The notes under the pieces were generated by a model. It did not search any database. It saw only the letters and a list, made by a program, of their open reading frames with translations, and was not told the DNA's origin. Both the position numbers and the translations under genes were made by a program. 64,000 nucleotides of DNA from an uncultured Alphaproteobacteria bacterium (lineage in GTDB: Bacteria; Pseudomonadota; Alphaproteobacteria; CADEGL01): the NCBI GenBank assembly GCA_902826885.1, contig CADEGL010000005.1, positions 14,027 to 78,026 of the forward strand, written 5' to 3'. Positions 58,297-64,000 of the stretch are shown here, in pieces; the stretch's first letter is position 1; every line of letters starts with the position of its first letter.

Positions 58297-58827
58297 ATGC
58301 GCCTGGATGCAATCGACCGCCGCATTCTTAATGCGCTCCAAGCCGACGCGACCATCCAACTCGCGGACCTCGCCAAGGAAGCCGGCCTGTCGCCCACGCC
58401 CTGTTGGCGGCGGGTGAAGAATCTGGAGGAGGCCGGGGTGATCCGCGGCCGCGTGGCGTTGCTCGACCGGGCGAAACTGAATCTCAATGTGACGGTGTTC
58501 GTGGCCATCCGCACAAACCAGCACAACCCGGAGTGGCTGGAGCGGTTCGCGCGCGCGGTGCTGGAGATTCCGGAGGTGGTCGATTTCTACCGCATGAGCG
58601 GCGATATCGACTACCTGCTGCGCGTCGTGGTGCCGGACATCGCCGCCTATGACGAGGTCTATAAACGCCTGATCAAGCGCATCGACCTCTATGACGTCAG
58701 CTCCAGCTTCGCCATGGAGGAGATCAAGTGCACGACCGCCCTGCCCGTCCGCTATGCGGACGCGGTGGAGGAAGAGGCCGCGCCGCCTAGGAAGGCAGTA
58801 CGGCGACGGCCGAAATCTCGACCATGA
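58297..58827 (+). CDS. Lrp/AsnC family transcriptional regulator 2
   Basis: A 176-residue feast/famine regulator. The helix-turn-helix is LDAIDRRILNALQADATIQLADLAKEAGLSPTPCWRRVKNLEEAG; the Ser-Pro-Thr-Pro-Cys-Trp-Arg-Arg recognition helix is the branched-chain or amino acid type. The RAM domain follows (VAIRTNQHNPEWLERF, MSGDIDYLLRVVV). The C-terminal 25 residues are basic and disordered and overlap the convergent RidA-like gene by 41 bp. A ribosome site AAGAGAG precedes the ATG. Confidence 0.9.
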   Translation: MRLDAIDRRILNALQADATIQLADLAKEAGLSPTPCWRRVKNLEEAGVIRGRVALLDRAKLNLNVTVFVAIRTNQHNPEWLERFARAVLEIPEVVDFYRMSGDIDYLLRVVVPDIAAYDEVYKRLIKRIDLYDVSSSFAMEEIKCTTALPVRYADAVEEEAAPPRKAVRRRPKSRP

Positions 58828-59218
58828 GTTCCGGGAAGGCCAGGCCGGCCACCTCGACGATGGCGCTGGAGGGACCGCCCTTGGGCCAGTGCTTTAGGCG
58901 CGCGTCGCGAATCTCGTCGAGCACGCGGATGTCGGTGACATAGACGATCACCTGGACCACGTCCGCCATGGTGGCGCCGTTGGCCTTCAGAATGGTCAGG
59001 ACGTTCTTGAGCGTCTGTTCGGCTTGCTTGGCCGGGTCGCCCTTACCGACAATGCGGCCCTTGGCGTCCATCGAGACCTGGCCGGAAACGAACAGCAGCG
59101 GTCCGGATTCGACCCGCACGCAGTTGGAATAGTAACCGCGGATGGGTGCCGGCACGCCCGGCGGATTCCACGACCGCTTGCGCCCCTTCGTGGTTTTCTT
59201 TCTGGTTTTGGTCGCCAT
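58787..59218 (-). CDS. RidA (YjgF) family protein lacking the catalytic arginine
   Basis: A 143-residue protein of the RidA family, whose active members deaminate reactive imines and enamines. The core is clear: GYYSNCVRVESGPLLFVSGQVSMDAKG, then QTLKNVLTILKANGATMADVVQVIVYVTD and PELMVEISAVAVLP. The usual Pro-Ala-Arg-Ser block with the essential Arg is GPSSAIVEVAGL here, so the Arg appears replaced by Ser. That places it in a Rid subfamily without imine deaminase activity. The N-terminus is basic (TKTRKKTTKGRKRS). Confidence 0.87.
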   Translation of the reverse strand: MATKTRKKTTKGRKRSWNPPGVPAPIRGYYSNCVRVESGPLLFVSGQVSMDAKGRIVGKGDPAKQAEQTLKNVLTILKANGATMADVVQVIVYVTDIRVLDEIRDARLKHWPKGGPSSAIVEVAGLAFPELMVEISAVAVLPS

Positions 59219-59236: not shown

Positions 59237-59307
59237 GCCTCATGCGCCAACGGGCTCGGCATGAGGCGCTTATTGATGAATCCTCACCCTGAATTTGTCG
59301 AAGGGTG
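59237..59307 (-). repeat. Two-hairpin intergenic repeat, copy A
   Basis: A compound palindromic element. Hairpin 1 spans 59237-59267 (arms GCCTCATGC and GCATGAGGC) and hairpin 2 spans 59285-59307 (arms CACCCT and AGGGTG). It aligns along its length with the reverse complement of the element at 62529-62600. It lies between the RidA-family and SDR genes, wholly outside coding sequence. Confidence 0.82.
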
Positions 59308-59319
59308 CGCTTCGTTTCC

Positions 59320-60120
59320 TCACGAAAACTTACAGGTCAGCCCGCCGTCCACCACGATGCCCTGGCCCGTGATGTATTCGGAATCGTCCGACGCCAGAAA
59401 CAGCGCCAGCTTGGCAACATCCCAGCCCGTGCCCGCGCGGCCATAGGGTACCGAGGCGTCGCGGTTCTTGAGGAACGTTTCAAGCTCCGCCGGTTTCATC
59501 TGCTTTTCCCAGCGCGTCGTCATCATGGGCGTGTTCATCATGCCCGGCAGGATGGCGTTGCAGCGAATCTTCTTCTTGCCGAAGTCGAGCGCCACCCCGC
59601 GGGTGAAGCCCAGCACACCGGCCTTGCTGGTGTAGTACGCGATGAAGGGCCTGCCGTTGTGGCGGATGGCCGAGATGGACGACAGGTTCACGATCGCGCC
59701 GCCGCCCTGCTTCTCCATCAAGGGGATGACGTGTTTGCAGGTCAACATCATGGATTTGAGGTTGACCGCCATCGTGTGGTCCCACTCTTCTTCCGTCACG
59801 CCAACCACGTCGGTGGTGTCGGTGATACCGACATTGTTGTGCAGAATGTCGATGCGGCCATAGGTGTCGACGCAACGCTTCACCAGCGCCTCGACCTCTT
59901 TCGCCTTGGTCACATCGGCCTGATGCGCCGTGGCCGCACCGCCCTCCTTCTCGATGATGGACTTCGTCTCCTCGGCGGCGGCCAAGCTCTGGTCGACGCC
60001 GAAGACCTTGGCGCCCTCGCGCGCGAACAGTACCGCCGCGGCCTTGCCATTGCCCCAACCCGGCCCCATCGAGCCAGCGCCAATGACGAGAGCCACTTTG
60101 CCTTTGAGACGATCACCCAT
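59320..60120 (-). CDS. SDR family oxidoreductase with long glycine-rich cofactor loop
   Basis: A 266-residue short-chain dehydrogenase. The cofactor loop is longer than usual (GAGSMGPGWGNGKAAA), as in a recognised SDR subgroup. Other blocks are LHNNVGITDTTDVVG, the catalytic Ser in NLSSISAIRHNG and Tyr-x-x-x-Lys in AYYTSKAGVLGF. The start at 60120 has AAGGAGATC upstream; a longer reading adds an unrelated leader. It is divergent from the second hyuA gene across about 265 bp that should hold both promoters. Confidence 0.88.
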   Translation of the reverse strand: MGDRLKGKVALVIGAGSMGPGWGNGKAAAVLFAREGAKVFGVDQSLAAAEETKSIIEKEGGAATAHQADVTKAKEVEALVKRCVDTYGRIDILHNNVGITDTTDVVGVTEEEWDHTMAVNLKSMMLTCKHVIPLMEKQGGGAIVNLSSISAIRHNGRPFIAYYTSKAGVLGFTRGVALDFGKKKIRCNAILPGMMNTPMMTTRWEKQMKPAELETFLKNRDASVPYGRAGTGWDVAKLALFLASDDSEYITGQGIVVDGGLTCKFS

Positions 60121-60385
60121 GCCTTTGATCTCCTTGCTTGGTGCGGGATATTGGCGGGAACACATGGGGGGCGGCAACAGCCGTACGCCATCCCGAGCTC
60201 GCGCAAGGCCGGTAAATGGCGAGGGGCCGGATTTCACCCTTTGAAACTGTCGCTTCGCCAGGTTCGGATTGCGGAACGAAAGGCGCGGTTTCGCGGCCCG
60301 CCATGCGCAAAACGCAGGTTCACAAAGCTTGCCGGACGTCACGGGTCCGTTATAGTCCCCCGCGAATTCCGCAGGCGGAGACCAC

Positions 60386-62512
60386 ATGAGCACGAACAAG
60401 AATTCCGCGCGCGCCGCGCGTAAGCCCCAGGCGCGCCTCGGTGTCGACATTGGCGGCACCTTCACCGACGTGGCCCTCGAAGTCGGCACCACCGCCTATT
60501 CGGCGAAAACGCTGACCACCCATGGCGCCCCCGAGCGCGGCGTGCTGATCGGCATGCGCGACGTGATCGCCAAGGCAGGCATCACGCCGCAGGACATCGA
60601 CATCATCATCTACGGCACCACGCTCGCCACCAACATGCTGATCGAGCGGCGCGGCGCCAAGACGGCGCTGGTGACCACGGAAGGTTTCCGCGATTCGATC
60701 GAGATGCGGAACGAGAACCGCTTCGAGCAGTACGACATCAATATCGACCTGCCCGAGCCGCTGGTGCCGCGCCATCTGCGCTTCCCCATTCCCGAGCGCC
60801 TGACCGCGCAAGGCCGCGTGCTGATGCCGCTGCGCGAGGATGCGGTCGAGGCGCTGATCCCGCAGCTTGAGAAGGAAGGCATCGAATCGATCGCGGTCGG
60901 CTTTATCCATTCCTACGCCCACCCGATCCATGAAAAGCAAGCGCGCGACATTCTGTCCCGCCGCCTGCCCAAGGTTTCGATCACGCTGTCTTCGGAAGTC
61001 TCGCCCGAGATGCGCGAGTTCGAGCGCTTCTCGACGGCCTGCGCCAACGCCTATGTCCAGCCGCTGATGAGCCGTCATTTGACGGCGCTCGGCCGCGACT
61101 TGCGCGACGCCGGCTTCCAATGCCCCCTCTTCCTCATGCTTTCCGGCGGCGGCATCACGACACTGGAAACGGCCATCGAATTCCCGGTCCGCCTGGTGGA
61201 ATCGGGCCCGGCGGGCGGCGCCATCTTCGCAAGTCACGTGGCGCACCAGTGCGGCGTGAAGGACGTCGTGTCCTACGATATGGGCGGCACGACGGCGAAG
61301 ATCTGCATGATCGACGAGTTCCAGCCCCAGACCTCGCGCACTTTCGAGGTCGCGCGCGTCTACCGCTTCATGAAGGGCAGCGGCCTTCCCTTGCGCATCC
61401 CGGTCATCGAAATGGTTGAGATTGGCGCGGGTGGCGGCTCGATCGCTCATATCGACTCGCTCGGCCGCATCGCGGTCGGTCCCGAGAGCGCGGGCTCCGA
61501 ACCCGGCCCGGCTTGCTATGGCCGTGGCGGCTCCAAGCCCGCCGTGACCGACGCCGACGTGACACTGGGCAAGATCGACCCGGACAACTTCGCGGGCGGG
61601 CGCATGAAGCTCGACCGCGACGCTTCGGCCAAGGTCATCGCGGCCGACGTGGGCAAGCCCCTCGGTCTCGAAGTCTCCCACGCCGCCCTCGGCATCTCCG
61701 AAATGGTGGACGAGAACATGGCCAACGCGGCCCGCGTCCACGCCATCGAAAGCGGCAAGGATATCGAAATTCGCACCTTGATCGGTTTCGGCGGCGCGGC
61801 GCCCATTCACGTCTCGCGCTTGGCCGAGAAGTTGAACGTGCCGCGCGTGATCATCCCGACCGGCGCGGGCGTCGGCTCGGCCGTCGGCTTCCTGCGCGCG
61901 CCCGTGGCGTACGAGGTCATTCGCAGCCATCACCAACGCCTGTCCAAGTTCAACGGGCGCGCGGCTACGGCCCTCATCGCCGAGATGCGCGCCGAGGCCA
62001 AGAAGGTCGTCGAGCCCGGCGCCAGCGGCGCCAAGCTGGTCGAAAAGCGTATTGCGTTCATGCGCTATGTCGGCCAGGGCCACGAGGTGGCGGTAAACCT
62101 GCCCGCCGACAAGTTCGGCGCCGATGCGGCGAAGTCGCTGCGCAAGGCGTTCGAGACCGCCTACAAGGCGCTCTATGACCGGACCATTCCGCATCTCGAC
62201 GTCGAGGTGCTGACTTGGGCGCTGCTTCTTTCGACGCCGCTGCCCAAGGTGTCGTCGGCCAAGCCGGTGAAGAAGAAGATCAAGGCCAAGCCGGTCGGCA
62301 AGCGCAAGATCATCGACCAGGCCACGGGCCAATTTGTCACCGCCGCGGTCTATGACCGCACGCAGCTCGTGCCCGGCTCGGTCATGCCCGGCCCGGCCGT
62401 GATCGTCGAGGAGCATACGGCGACCGTCGTGGGTAAGGCCTATGATGCGAGCATCAACGCCCTCGGGTATATTGTCCTGGACCACCGCAAGCTGGGCAAA
62501 AAGGCCCGCTGA
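60386..62512 (+). CDS. Hydantoinase A/oxoprolinase-type subunit, copy 2
   Basis: A 708-residue HyuA subunit. The ATPase loops GVDIGGTFTDVAL, YGTTLATNMLIERRG, SGPAGGAIFASHVA, YDMGGTTAKICMI and IGAGGGSIAHIDSLG are intact. A lysine-rich insert near residue 630 (KPVKKKIKAKPVGKRK) is not seen in copy 1 and is probably a surface loop. A GGCGGAG site precedes the ATG. It is separated from hyuB copy 2 by the two-hairpin repeat. Confidence 0.92.
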   Translation: MSTNKNSARAARKPQARLGVDIGGTFTDVALEVGTTAYSAKTLTTHGAPERGVLIGMRDVIAKAGITPQDIDIIIYGTTLATNMLIERRGAKTALVTTEGFRDSIEMRNENRFEQYDINIDLPEPLVPRHLRFPIPERLTAQGRVLMPLREDAVEALIPQLEKEGIESIAVGFIHSYAHPIHEKQARDILSRRLPKVSITLSSEVSPEMREFERFSTACANAYVQPLMSRHLTALGRDLRDAGFQCPLFLMLSGGGITTLETAIEFPVRLVESGPAGGAIFASHVAHQCGVKDVVSYDMGGTTAKICMIDEFQPQTSRTFEVARVYRFMKGSGLPLRIPVIEMVEIGAGGGSIAHIDSLGRIAVGPESAGSEPGPACYGRGGSKPAVTDADVTLGKIDPDNFAGGRMKLDRDASAKVIAADVGKPLGLEVSHAALGISEMVDENMANAARVHAIESGKDIEIRTLIGFGGAAPIHVSRLAEKLNVPRVIIPTGAGVGSAVGFLRAPVAYEVIRSHHQRLSKFNGRAATALIAEMRAEAKKVVEPGASGAKLVEKRIAFMRYVGQGHEVAVNLPADKFGADAAKSLRKAFETAYKALYDRTIPHLDVEVLTWALLLSTPLPKVSSAKPVKKKIKAKPVGKRKIIDQATGQFVTAAVYDRTQLVPGSVMPGPAVIVEEHTATVVGKAYDASINALGYIVLDHRKLGKKAR

Positions 62513-62528
62513 CGGCTTGGAACGCGGA

Positions 62529-62600
62529 CCTCACCCTTCGACGGGCTTGGGTGAGGCTCTTGTAATAAATGCTCTCATGCTGAGCCCGTCGAAGCATGAG
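62529..62600 (+). repeat. Two-hairpin intergenic repeat, copy B
   Basis: A compound palindromic element. Hairpin 1 spans 62529-62556 (arms CCTCACCC and GGGTGAGG) and hairpin 2 spans 62574-62600 (arms CTCATGCT and AGCATGAG). The two loops are themselves nearly complementary (centred on GACGGGCT and AGCCCGTC). It is the inverted copy of the element at 59237-59307 and sits between hyuA and hyuB. Confidence 0.85.
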
Positions 62601-62631
62601 ACCGCTGCAAAACCTCGCTAGAGGACTGACC

Positions 62632-64000
62632 ATGGCCAAGAAGAACGACGCCCTCGCCCAGATCCACATGCAGGTCATGTGGAACCGCCTGATCTCCGTC
62701 GTGGAGGAACAGGCGCAGACCCTGGTGCGCACCGCTTTCTCCACCTCCGTGCGCGAGGCCGGCGACCTTTCGGCGGGCGTCTTCGACGAACAGGGCCGCA
62801 TGCTGGCCCAGGCCGTGACCGGCACGCCGGGCCACATCAACTCGATGGCCGAGGCTGTGCCCCACTTCATCGCCAAGTATCCGATGAGCAAGATGAAGCC
62901 GGGCGACCACTTCATCACCAACGATCCCTGGCAGGCGTCTGGCCACCTGCACGACTTCACAGTCGTCTCGCCGACCTTCCACAAGGGCCGGGCGGTCGCT
63001 CTGTTCGCCAACACAATCCACGTCGTCGATATTGGCGGCCGCGGTTTCGGCCCCGACGGGCGCCAGGTTTTCGAGGAAGGCCTGAACATCCCCATCATGC
63101 ACCTCTTCAAGGAGGGCAAGGCCAACGAGACGCTGATGGAGCTCATCCGCACCAACGTGCGCGAGCCCATGCAGGTCGAGGGCGACCTGTTCGCCGCCGC
63201 GGCTTGCAACGACACGGGCTCCAAGCGCCTGGTCGACATGATGACCGAGTTCGAGCTGAAGGACCTGAACAAGCTCGGCGCCTTCATCATCGAATCCTCG
63301 CGCAAGGCGACGATCGAGAAGATCCGCAAGCTGAAGCCCGGCACCTACCGCAACACGATGCAGACTGACGGCTACGACGCGCCGGTCACCATCTCCGCGG
63401 CGCTGACGGTCGGCAAGGACGGCATCCACGTCGACTACGAAGGCACGTCCGGCGCCAGCCCCTACGGCATCAACGTGGTGTTCAACTACACCAAGGCCTA
63501 CACCTGCTTCGGCGTGAAATGCATCGTGGCTCCGGACATTCCGAACAACTACGGCTCGCTGCTGCCGATCACCTTCTCGGCGCCCGAGGGCTCGATCCTG
63601 AACGTCCAGCGTCCTTGGGCCGTGGCCGCGCGCCACATCATCGGCCACTGCCTGCCCGACACGGTGTTCGGCTGCCTGCACCAGGTGGTGCCGGAAGGCG
63701 CCCAGGCCGAGGGCTCGGCCAGCCTGTGGAACGTGCAGCTGCGCGGCGGCCCGTCCGTCTCCGGCGGCGTGGCCTTCAAGGGCAACATCCCCGAGTTCGA
63801 GATGCTGCAGTTCAACTCCGGCGGCACGGGCGCCCGCCCGACCAAGGACGGTCTCAACTCGACGGCCTTCCCCTCCGGCGTGCGCGGCATGCCGGTCGAG
63901 GCCAACGAAGCCATCACCCCGGTCGTGTTCTGGAAGAAGGAACTGCGTCCGGATTCCGGCGGCGCCGGCACCCAGCGCGGCGGCCTCGGCCAGATCATCG
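62632..64000 (+). CDS. Hydantoinase B/oxoprolinase-type subunit, copy 2 (3' end cut by window edge)
   Basis: The first 456 residues of a HyuB subunit. Seen: RTAFSTSVREAGDLSAGVFDEQGRMLAQAVTGTPGH, HFITNDPWQASGHLHDFTVVSP and, near the cut, DSGGAGTQRGGLGQII (the Gly-Gly-x-Gly block). It carries the family features of the N-terminal and middle regions. The start at 62632 is preceded by AGAGGAC. It is partner to hyuA copy 2 across 119 bp of repeat. The ending is unseen, so completeness cannot be judged. Confidence 0.92.
   Translation, partial: MAKKNDALAQIHMQVMWNRLISVVEEQAQTLVRTAFSTSVREAGDLSAGVFDEQGRMLAQAVTGTPGHINSMAEAVPHFIAKYPMSKMKPGDHFITNDPWQASGHLHDFTVVSPTFHKGRAVALFANTIHVVDIGGRGFGPDGRQVFEEGLNIPIMHLFKEGKANETLMELIRTNVREPMQVEGDLFAAAACNDTGSKRLVDMMTEFELKDLNKLGAFIIESSRKATIEKIRKLKPGTYRNTMQTDGYDAPVTISAALTVGKDGIHVDYEGTSGASPYGINVVFNYTKAYTCFGVKCIVAPDIPNNYGSLLPITFSAPEGSILNVQRPWAVAARHIIGHCLPDTVFGCLHQVVPEGAQAEGSASLWNVQLRGGPSVSGGVAFKGNIPEFEMLQFNSGGTGARPTKDGLNSTAFPSGVRGMPVEANEAITPVVFWKKELRPDSGGAGTQRGGLGQII

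Follow-up and report, generated by a model that had tools for sequence, protein, structure and literature searches.

The two mutually inverted repeats that bracket an SDR gene and a hyuA-like gene in the window (the whole 64-kb stretch of alphaproteobacterial DNA analysed here) are very probably two independent copies, A and B, of a non-autonomous, dispersed REP dimer of the BIME-like kind. Such dimers appear to be acquired in steps of about 100 bp, mostly no more than 20 bp past stop codons, and the segment lying between A and B very probably plays no part. Each repeated unit forms a hairpin of 29 nt, in which the core (TGAGCNNGTCGAAG) is fixed while the stems covary and can be exchanged.

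Copy A (59237 to 59310) is identical to the reverse complement of copy B (62528 to 62601) at 55 of about 78 aligned columns, and the alignment score of 73.5 lies far above those of shuffled sequences (mean 26.3, standard deviation 5.6, maximum 49; n = 2000). This similarity, with two stem-loops in each copy, had been recognised in an initial annotation of the window, whose coordinates proved correct to a few bases. The two hairpin units of each copy are of opposite orientation. In copy A the CCTC tags face inwards, and an ATGC-stem unit is followed, after a 15-nt AT-rich spacer, by an ACCC-stem unit: unit A1 (59238 to 59266, minus strand; model R1, 38.3 bits) has the stem CCTCATGC/GCATGAGG and a degenerate core, CGAGCCCGTTGGCG, and unit A2 (59282 to 59310, plus strand; 37.9 bits) has the stem CTCACCCT/AGGGTG and the core TGAATTTGTCGAAG. 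Copy B is a dimer of the same type, in which an ACCC-stem unit, B1 (62529 to 62556, minus strand; CCTCACCC...GGGTGAGG; 29.0 bits), precedes the near-consensus ATGC-stem unit B2 (62573 to 62601, plus strand; TCTCATGCTGAGCCCGTCGAAGCATGAGA; 46 bits). The family's covariance model recovered all four units in the 64-kb window, with E values from 3.6e-10 to 1.7e-5, and no other match below E 0.2 was found there except the same palindromes on the opposite strand. As the training set of this model includes some of the A and B units, independent support comes from the genome-wide set described below. The halves of copy B, whose loops had been described as nearly complementary, can indeed pair with each other, giving a single long hairpin (-40.4 kcal/mol, z = -6.8), and two separate hairpins form in copy A (z = -1.6 and -2.5 for the two strands).

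Gene calls agreed with the earlier view that both copies are intergenic. Copy A lies 9 bp past the stop codon of the SDR gene (59320 to 60120, minus strand, an ORF call; PF13561, E 1e-63) and 19 bp ahead of the start of a RidA/L-PSP family gene (58787 to 59218, minus strand; PF01042, E 6e-24), which is downstream of it in the direction of transcription. Copy B lies approximately 16 bp past the stop codon of the hyuA-like gene (hydantoinase/oxoprolinase A; 60386 to 62512, plus strand; PF01968, E 6e-81) and approximately 30 bp ahead of the start of a hyuB-like gene (hydantoinase B; 62632 to 63999, plus strand; PF02538, E 3e-125), which runs off the window.

The structure of the unit was derived from a gapless 29-nt alignment of 31 units, all from this genome. 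Each consists of CCTC, a variable arm (ATGCT, ACCCT or ATCCT), the fixed core GAGCNNGTCGA, the complementary arm, and an unpaired tail of GAG plus any base; the CCTC tag stands at the conserved end of most units, and a GTAG (or GYRG-type) tag is absent from those aligned. The two arms covary: 26 cells changed on both sides, compared with 9.9 in shuffles, none of 500 of which reached 26, and controls in which the partner positions were slid gave 0 to 5 cells. The stem of eight positions contains two G-A mismatches, so that the loop is CNNGT (5 nt) if the G-A pairs are counted as stem and 11 nt otherwise. ATGC and ATCC types begin with AT and ACCC types do not, with approximately half of the stems beginning AC. 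The same arrangement was seen by eye in distant genomes, where the core is constant and the stems differ (CATGG in G029, CTTCGCCC in G032 and CGTTCGCCC in G016). In the last of these, a complete genome of the same class, the model gave about 115 weak matches that combine the same core with CGTTCGCCC/GGGCGG stems (L226, L233, L240 and L247). Judged from their sequences, these represent a related family with different stems, in a separate lineage of the class.

In the genome to which the window belongs (G000), the covariance model detected about 55 units at about 32 loci (E below 0.02), which bears out the initial proposal of a dispersed REP/BIME-like family. By hand tally, these loci comprise 17 inverted dimers with outward tags, 11 with inward tags (including A and B), one direct pair and three single units; inverted dimers thus account for 28 of the approximately 32 loci and usually combine one ACCC-type unit with one ATGC- or ATCC-type unit. 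The general features of REP/BIME elements are all present, namely short palindromes in many intergenic copies with a common consensus and inverted pairing. A mere local duplication, with only two copies and none in relatives, had been considered as the alternative; however, 34 units were found in a congener (G001), and two genomes from a second genus of the family, G003 and G004, contain 71 and 29. Although these relatives carry 29 to 71 units, the covariance model found none in a further genome of the same family (G002, 95% complete). In a class-wide sample, 14 of 144 alphaproteobacterial genomes gave a match at E below 1e-4, and the exact ATGC-type consensus occurs in at least 112 stretches of the species-genome collection, all of which, among the matches listed, come from alphaproteobacterial records or from records given only as 'Proteobacteria'. 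The repeat family therefore recurs within the genus and in a second genus of the same taxonomic family, with a patchy occurrence across the Alphaproteobacteria. A simple count of the core pattern with two mismatches (571 + 552, against 444 + 526 in the control) was swamped by chance, and the covariance model was used instead. An Rfam search returned no relevant match, its one hit, to SNORD125, being attributed to chance at 23 bits (cut-off 56), and an exact-sequence literature search for the core found nothing.

Comparison with the congener, based on the stretches of this genome around the repeats, revealed turnover of these loci. In G001, about 17 of the approximately 26 comparable loci are empty, including A and B; four (L257, L261, L264 and L277) are clearly common to both genomes and L259 is partly so, while at L260 and L266 a different type of repeat occupies the site in G001. 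Conversely, some dimers of G001 are missing from this genome. An all-against-all comparison of the contig stretches around the repeats added one clean empty site (L089/L120), with no readable duplication at approximately 72% identity. No units are present at L263 and L270 in G002, G003 and G004, or at L268 in G002. Since the outgroups are empty at A, B, L263, L268 and L270, gain is the simpler reading there, and we infer that most sites reflect gains and not losses; the intergenic DNA can scarcely be aligned with that of the outgroups, and some absences could be losses.

The clean junctions share a pattern in which a short word occurs once in the congener and twice in this genome, with one copy at each end of the insert. 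These flanking direct repeats are CCGCTGA (7 bp) at L263, GGCCCTCG (8 bp) at L274 and (G)AAGGGTT (7 to 8 bp) at L268. The first two were found by an automated word search, which missed the third because of a neighbouring one-base indel; that word was read by eye. Shorter words flank L270 (TCAT, 4 bp) and copy A (TCGT, 4 bp; 6 of 8 positions in a longer frame), and the other sites compared showed no readable duplication. In shuffled inner flanks the longest word was 5 in 900 trials. The ends of the inserts vary relative to the dimer, lying approximately 3 to 23 nt from it on one side and 1 to 22 nt on the other.

The direct repeats of 7 to 8 bp at three sites suggest insertion at a staggered cut. 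Our tentative proposal, which we hold to be possible but somewhat less than probable, is that the dimers are still moving and insert as units of approximately 90 to 100 bp with a target-site duplication of 7 to 8 bp, the stems being interchangeable and the core fixed. The cuts would be staggered, made in trans by a DDE-type transposase or through another mechanism that leaves staggered ends, in contrast to the single-strand Y1 chemistry put forward for GTAG REPs. An alternative hypothesis is that the dimers are old and dying, and that the empty sites of G001 arose by palindrome-stimulated deletion between short direct repeats. Slippage of this kind would indeed leave direct repeats at variable distances from the dimer, as observed. 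However, as the outgroups are empty as well, deletion would need up to four independent losses per site, and many copies are close to the consensus; insertion is thus favoured, and we regard the deletion hypothesis as unlikely.

Other differences between the orthologous regions were also observed. At L264 (G000:C42:3800-9800, units at 2986 and 3033) and its counterpart L284 (G001:C10), and at L259 and L305, the ACCC and ATGC stem types are swapped, with both arms changing together. Between L264 and L284 the exchange is reciprocal and involves both units of the dimer, so that the heterodimer state is kept; the order of the loops argues weakly against an in-place inversion of the whole dimer as the cause. 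A different intergenic repeat family, with palindromes of the form CTCACCC...CCCTCTCC...GGAGAGGG, is present in this genome (L275:2945-3095 and L262:4850-4965) and in G001 (L300, L302 and L305), where it sometimes fills a gene-end position that is taken by a REP dimer in this genome. In addition, a 558-bp stretch at L256:2537-3050 (G000:C4, approximately 101,440-101,950) is absent in G001. It contains two tandem short ORFs with a common leader (MNPNENS..EFDDEL.DEALD) and Cys-rich ends, resembling, by sequence, precursors of a ribosomally synthesised peptide natural product, and a REP dimer directly follows these ORFs.

The dimers are strongly biased towards gene ends. According to an in-house codon model trained on this genome, the neighbouring genes are co-directional at 21, convergent at six and divergent at four of the 31 loci for which both neighbours were called, and approximately 25 of the 27 non-divergent loci start within 20 bp of a stop codon. 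By analogy with proposals for other REPs, this position suggests that the dimers are transcribed as 3' hairpins. We envisage that an enzyme that is not a Y1 transposase of the IS200/RAYT type may recognise the core and insert the dimer in trans; that most insertions would fall no more than 20 bp past a stop codon, which would place the dimers as hairpins in the 3' untranslated region of the preceding gene; and that, once transcribed, these hairpins would at most influence where the transcript of that gene ends or how its mRNA decays. A further hypothesis is that the dimers are not mobile at all but serve as terminators or as hairpins that stabilise mRNA, being under selection and maintained or copied through gene conversion. 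The gene-end bias fits this hypothesis, as does the swapping of stem types with pairing kept at the two orthologous sites described above. Nevertheless, the clean gains of approximately 100 bp occur at unrelated sites whose flanks have no similarity, and an intrinsic-terminator scan found none at A or B, with no terminator-like T-run past the hairpins of either copy. We therefore consider this hypothesis distinctly improbable, even more so than deletion.

Mobilisation by a Y1/HUH transposase in trans, as for GTAG-type REPs and the REPINs moved by RAYTs, would agree with hairpin dimers that are intergenic, dispersed and patchily distributed, and the initial annotation had pointed to a RAYT-type transposase as the enzyme to look for. 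However, the profile of the IS200/IS605 and RAYT Y1 transposases (PF01797) found nothing in this genome, which is 96.9% complete, or in G001 to G004, three of which carry 29 to 71 units, while the control genomes yielded matches as they should. Furthermore, the units do not track Y1 genes across the 144-genome sample, in which such genes occur in two of the 11 genomes with at least nine units and in 33 of the 133 others (Fisher p = 1). The units also bear no GTAG tag, and enzymes of the IS200/IS605 type do not produce larger target-site duplications (PMC2817692). A PF01797 Y1 transposase was thus rejected as the mobiliser, and the RAYT hypothesis as a whole appears very unlikely.

For the window itself, it had been suggested that the segment between A and B could invert or was mobilised as a unit, and the two copies are indeed mutually inverted on the plus strand. 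This look arises because the SDR gene is on the minus and the hyuA gene on the plus strand; relative to transcription, the order in both copies is identical, an ACCC unit followed by an ATGC unit. Such an orientation is no rule, as the heterodimers of the genome face either way relative to transcription (approximately 10 against 8, p = 0.8); their orientation is random, and an inverted pair such as A and B is therefore expected half the time. In G001, the gene content, order and orientation of the region are unchanged, at approximately 85 to 91% DNA identity, and neither copy is present: the stretches that hold A (92 bp) and B (98 bp) here shrink to 12 and 23 bp. The SDR and hyuA genes are likewise adjacent in the same arrangement in G003, where both copies are absent. 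The segment is not inverted between these genomes, and, given both this collinearity and the random orientation, an invertible or jointly mobilised segment is hardly credible. As the region is collinear and both copies are absent in G001, A and B were most likely each gained separately, most simply in this lineage. A false lead has thus been removed for the window, which holds no invertible cassette around SDR and hyuA.

Among described repeats, the best fit is the CGTC REP superfamily surveyed by Di Nocera et al. in 2013 (PMC3733652), with which the units were compared by described features. According to that survey, members carry a CGTC, TGTC or CCTC tag, a stem of 8 to 9 bp starting with paired A and T, a loop of 4 to 5 nt and an unpaired tail mostly fitting CCA; their dimers are mainly head-to-head (tags outside), with tail-to-tail ones rare, and they occupy mostly co-directional or convergent intergenes near stop codons and have no known transposase. 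The family studied here agrees in the CCTC tag variant, its alphaproteobacterial hosts, the inverted heterodimers, the location of 27 of 31 loci between co-directional or convergent genes with about 25 of them close to a stop, and the lack of a dedicated Y1 transposase. The loop would be of the described length, at 5 nt, only with the G-A pairs counted in the stem. The family differs in that the units are CCTC nearly throughout and end in GAG instead of CCA, in the two G-A mismatches and the roughly half of the stems that start with AC rather than AT, and in the abundance of dimers with inward tags (11 of 29). Since the CCA tail and the rarity of inward dimers are not found here and the stem matches the description only in part, we refer to the family as CGTC-like and do not file it as a member.

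Other systems resemble it less. GTAG REPs and REPINs with their RAYTs (PMC2817692; PMC3116915) are likewise inverted hairpin pairs, non-autonomous and dispersed between genes, and are set apart by their tag and their Y1 transposase. Br-REP1 and Br-REP2 of Bradyrhizobium are also alphaproteobacterial palindromes in 3' untranslated regions, but their consensus sequences are unrelated (PMC5082802). Bacterial MITEs (PMC2229807) share a length of approximately 100 bp, inverted halves, a possible short target duplication and a position near genes, whereas outside the hairpin units the dimers lack a fixed terminal sequence and, unlike in a classical MITE, their insert ends vary.

In the 2013 survey, the spread of CGTC REPs was left open between an ongoing extinction and movement by unspecified transposases (PMC3733652). 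The lineage-specific copies described here argue against a plain extinction of CGTC-like REPs in this genus and, together with the possible duplications of 7 to 8 bp, make the spread of CGTC REPs directly testable in strain collections.
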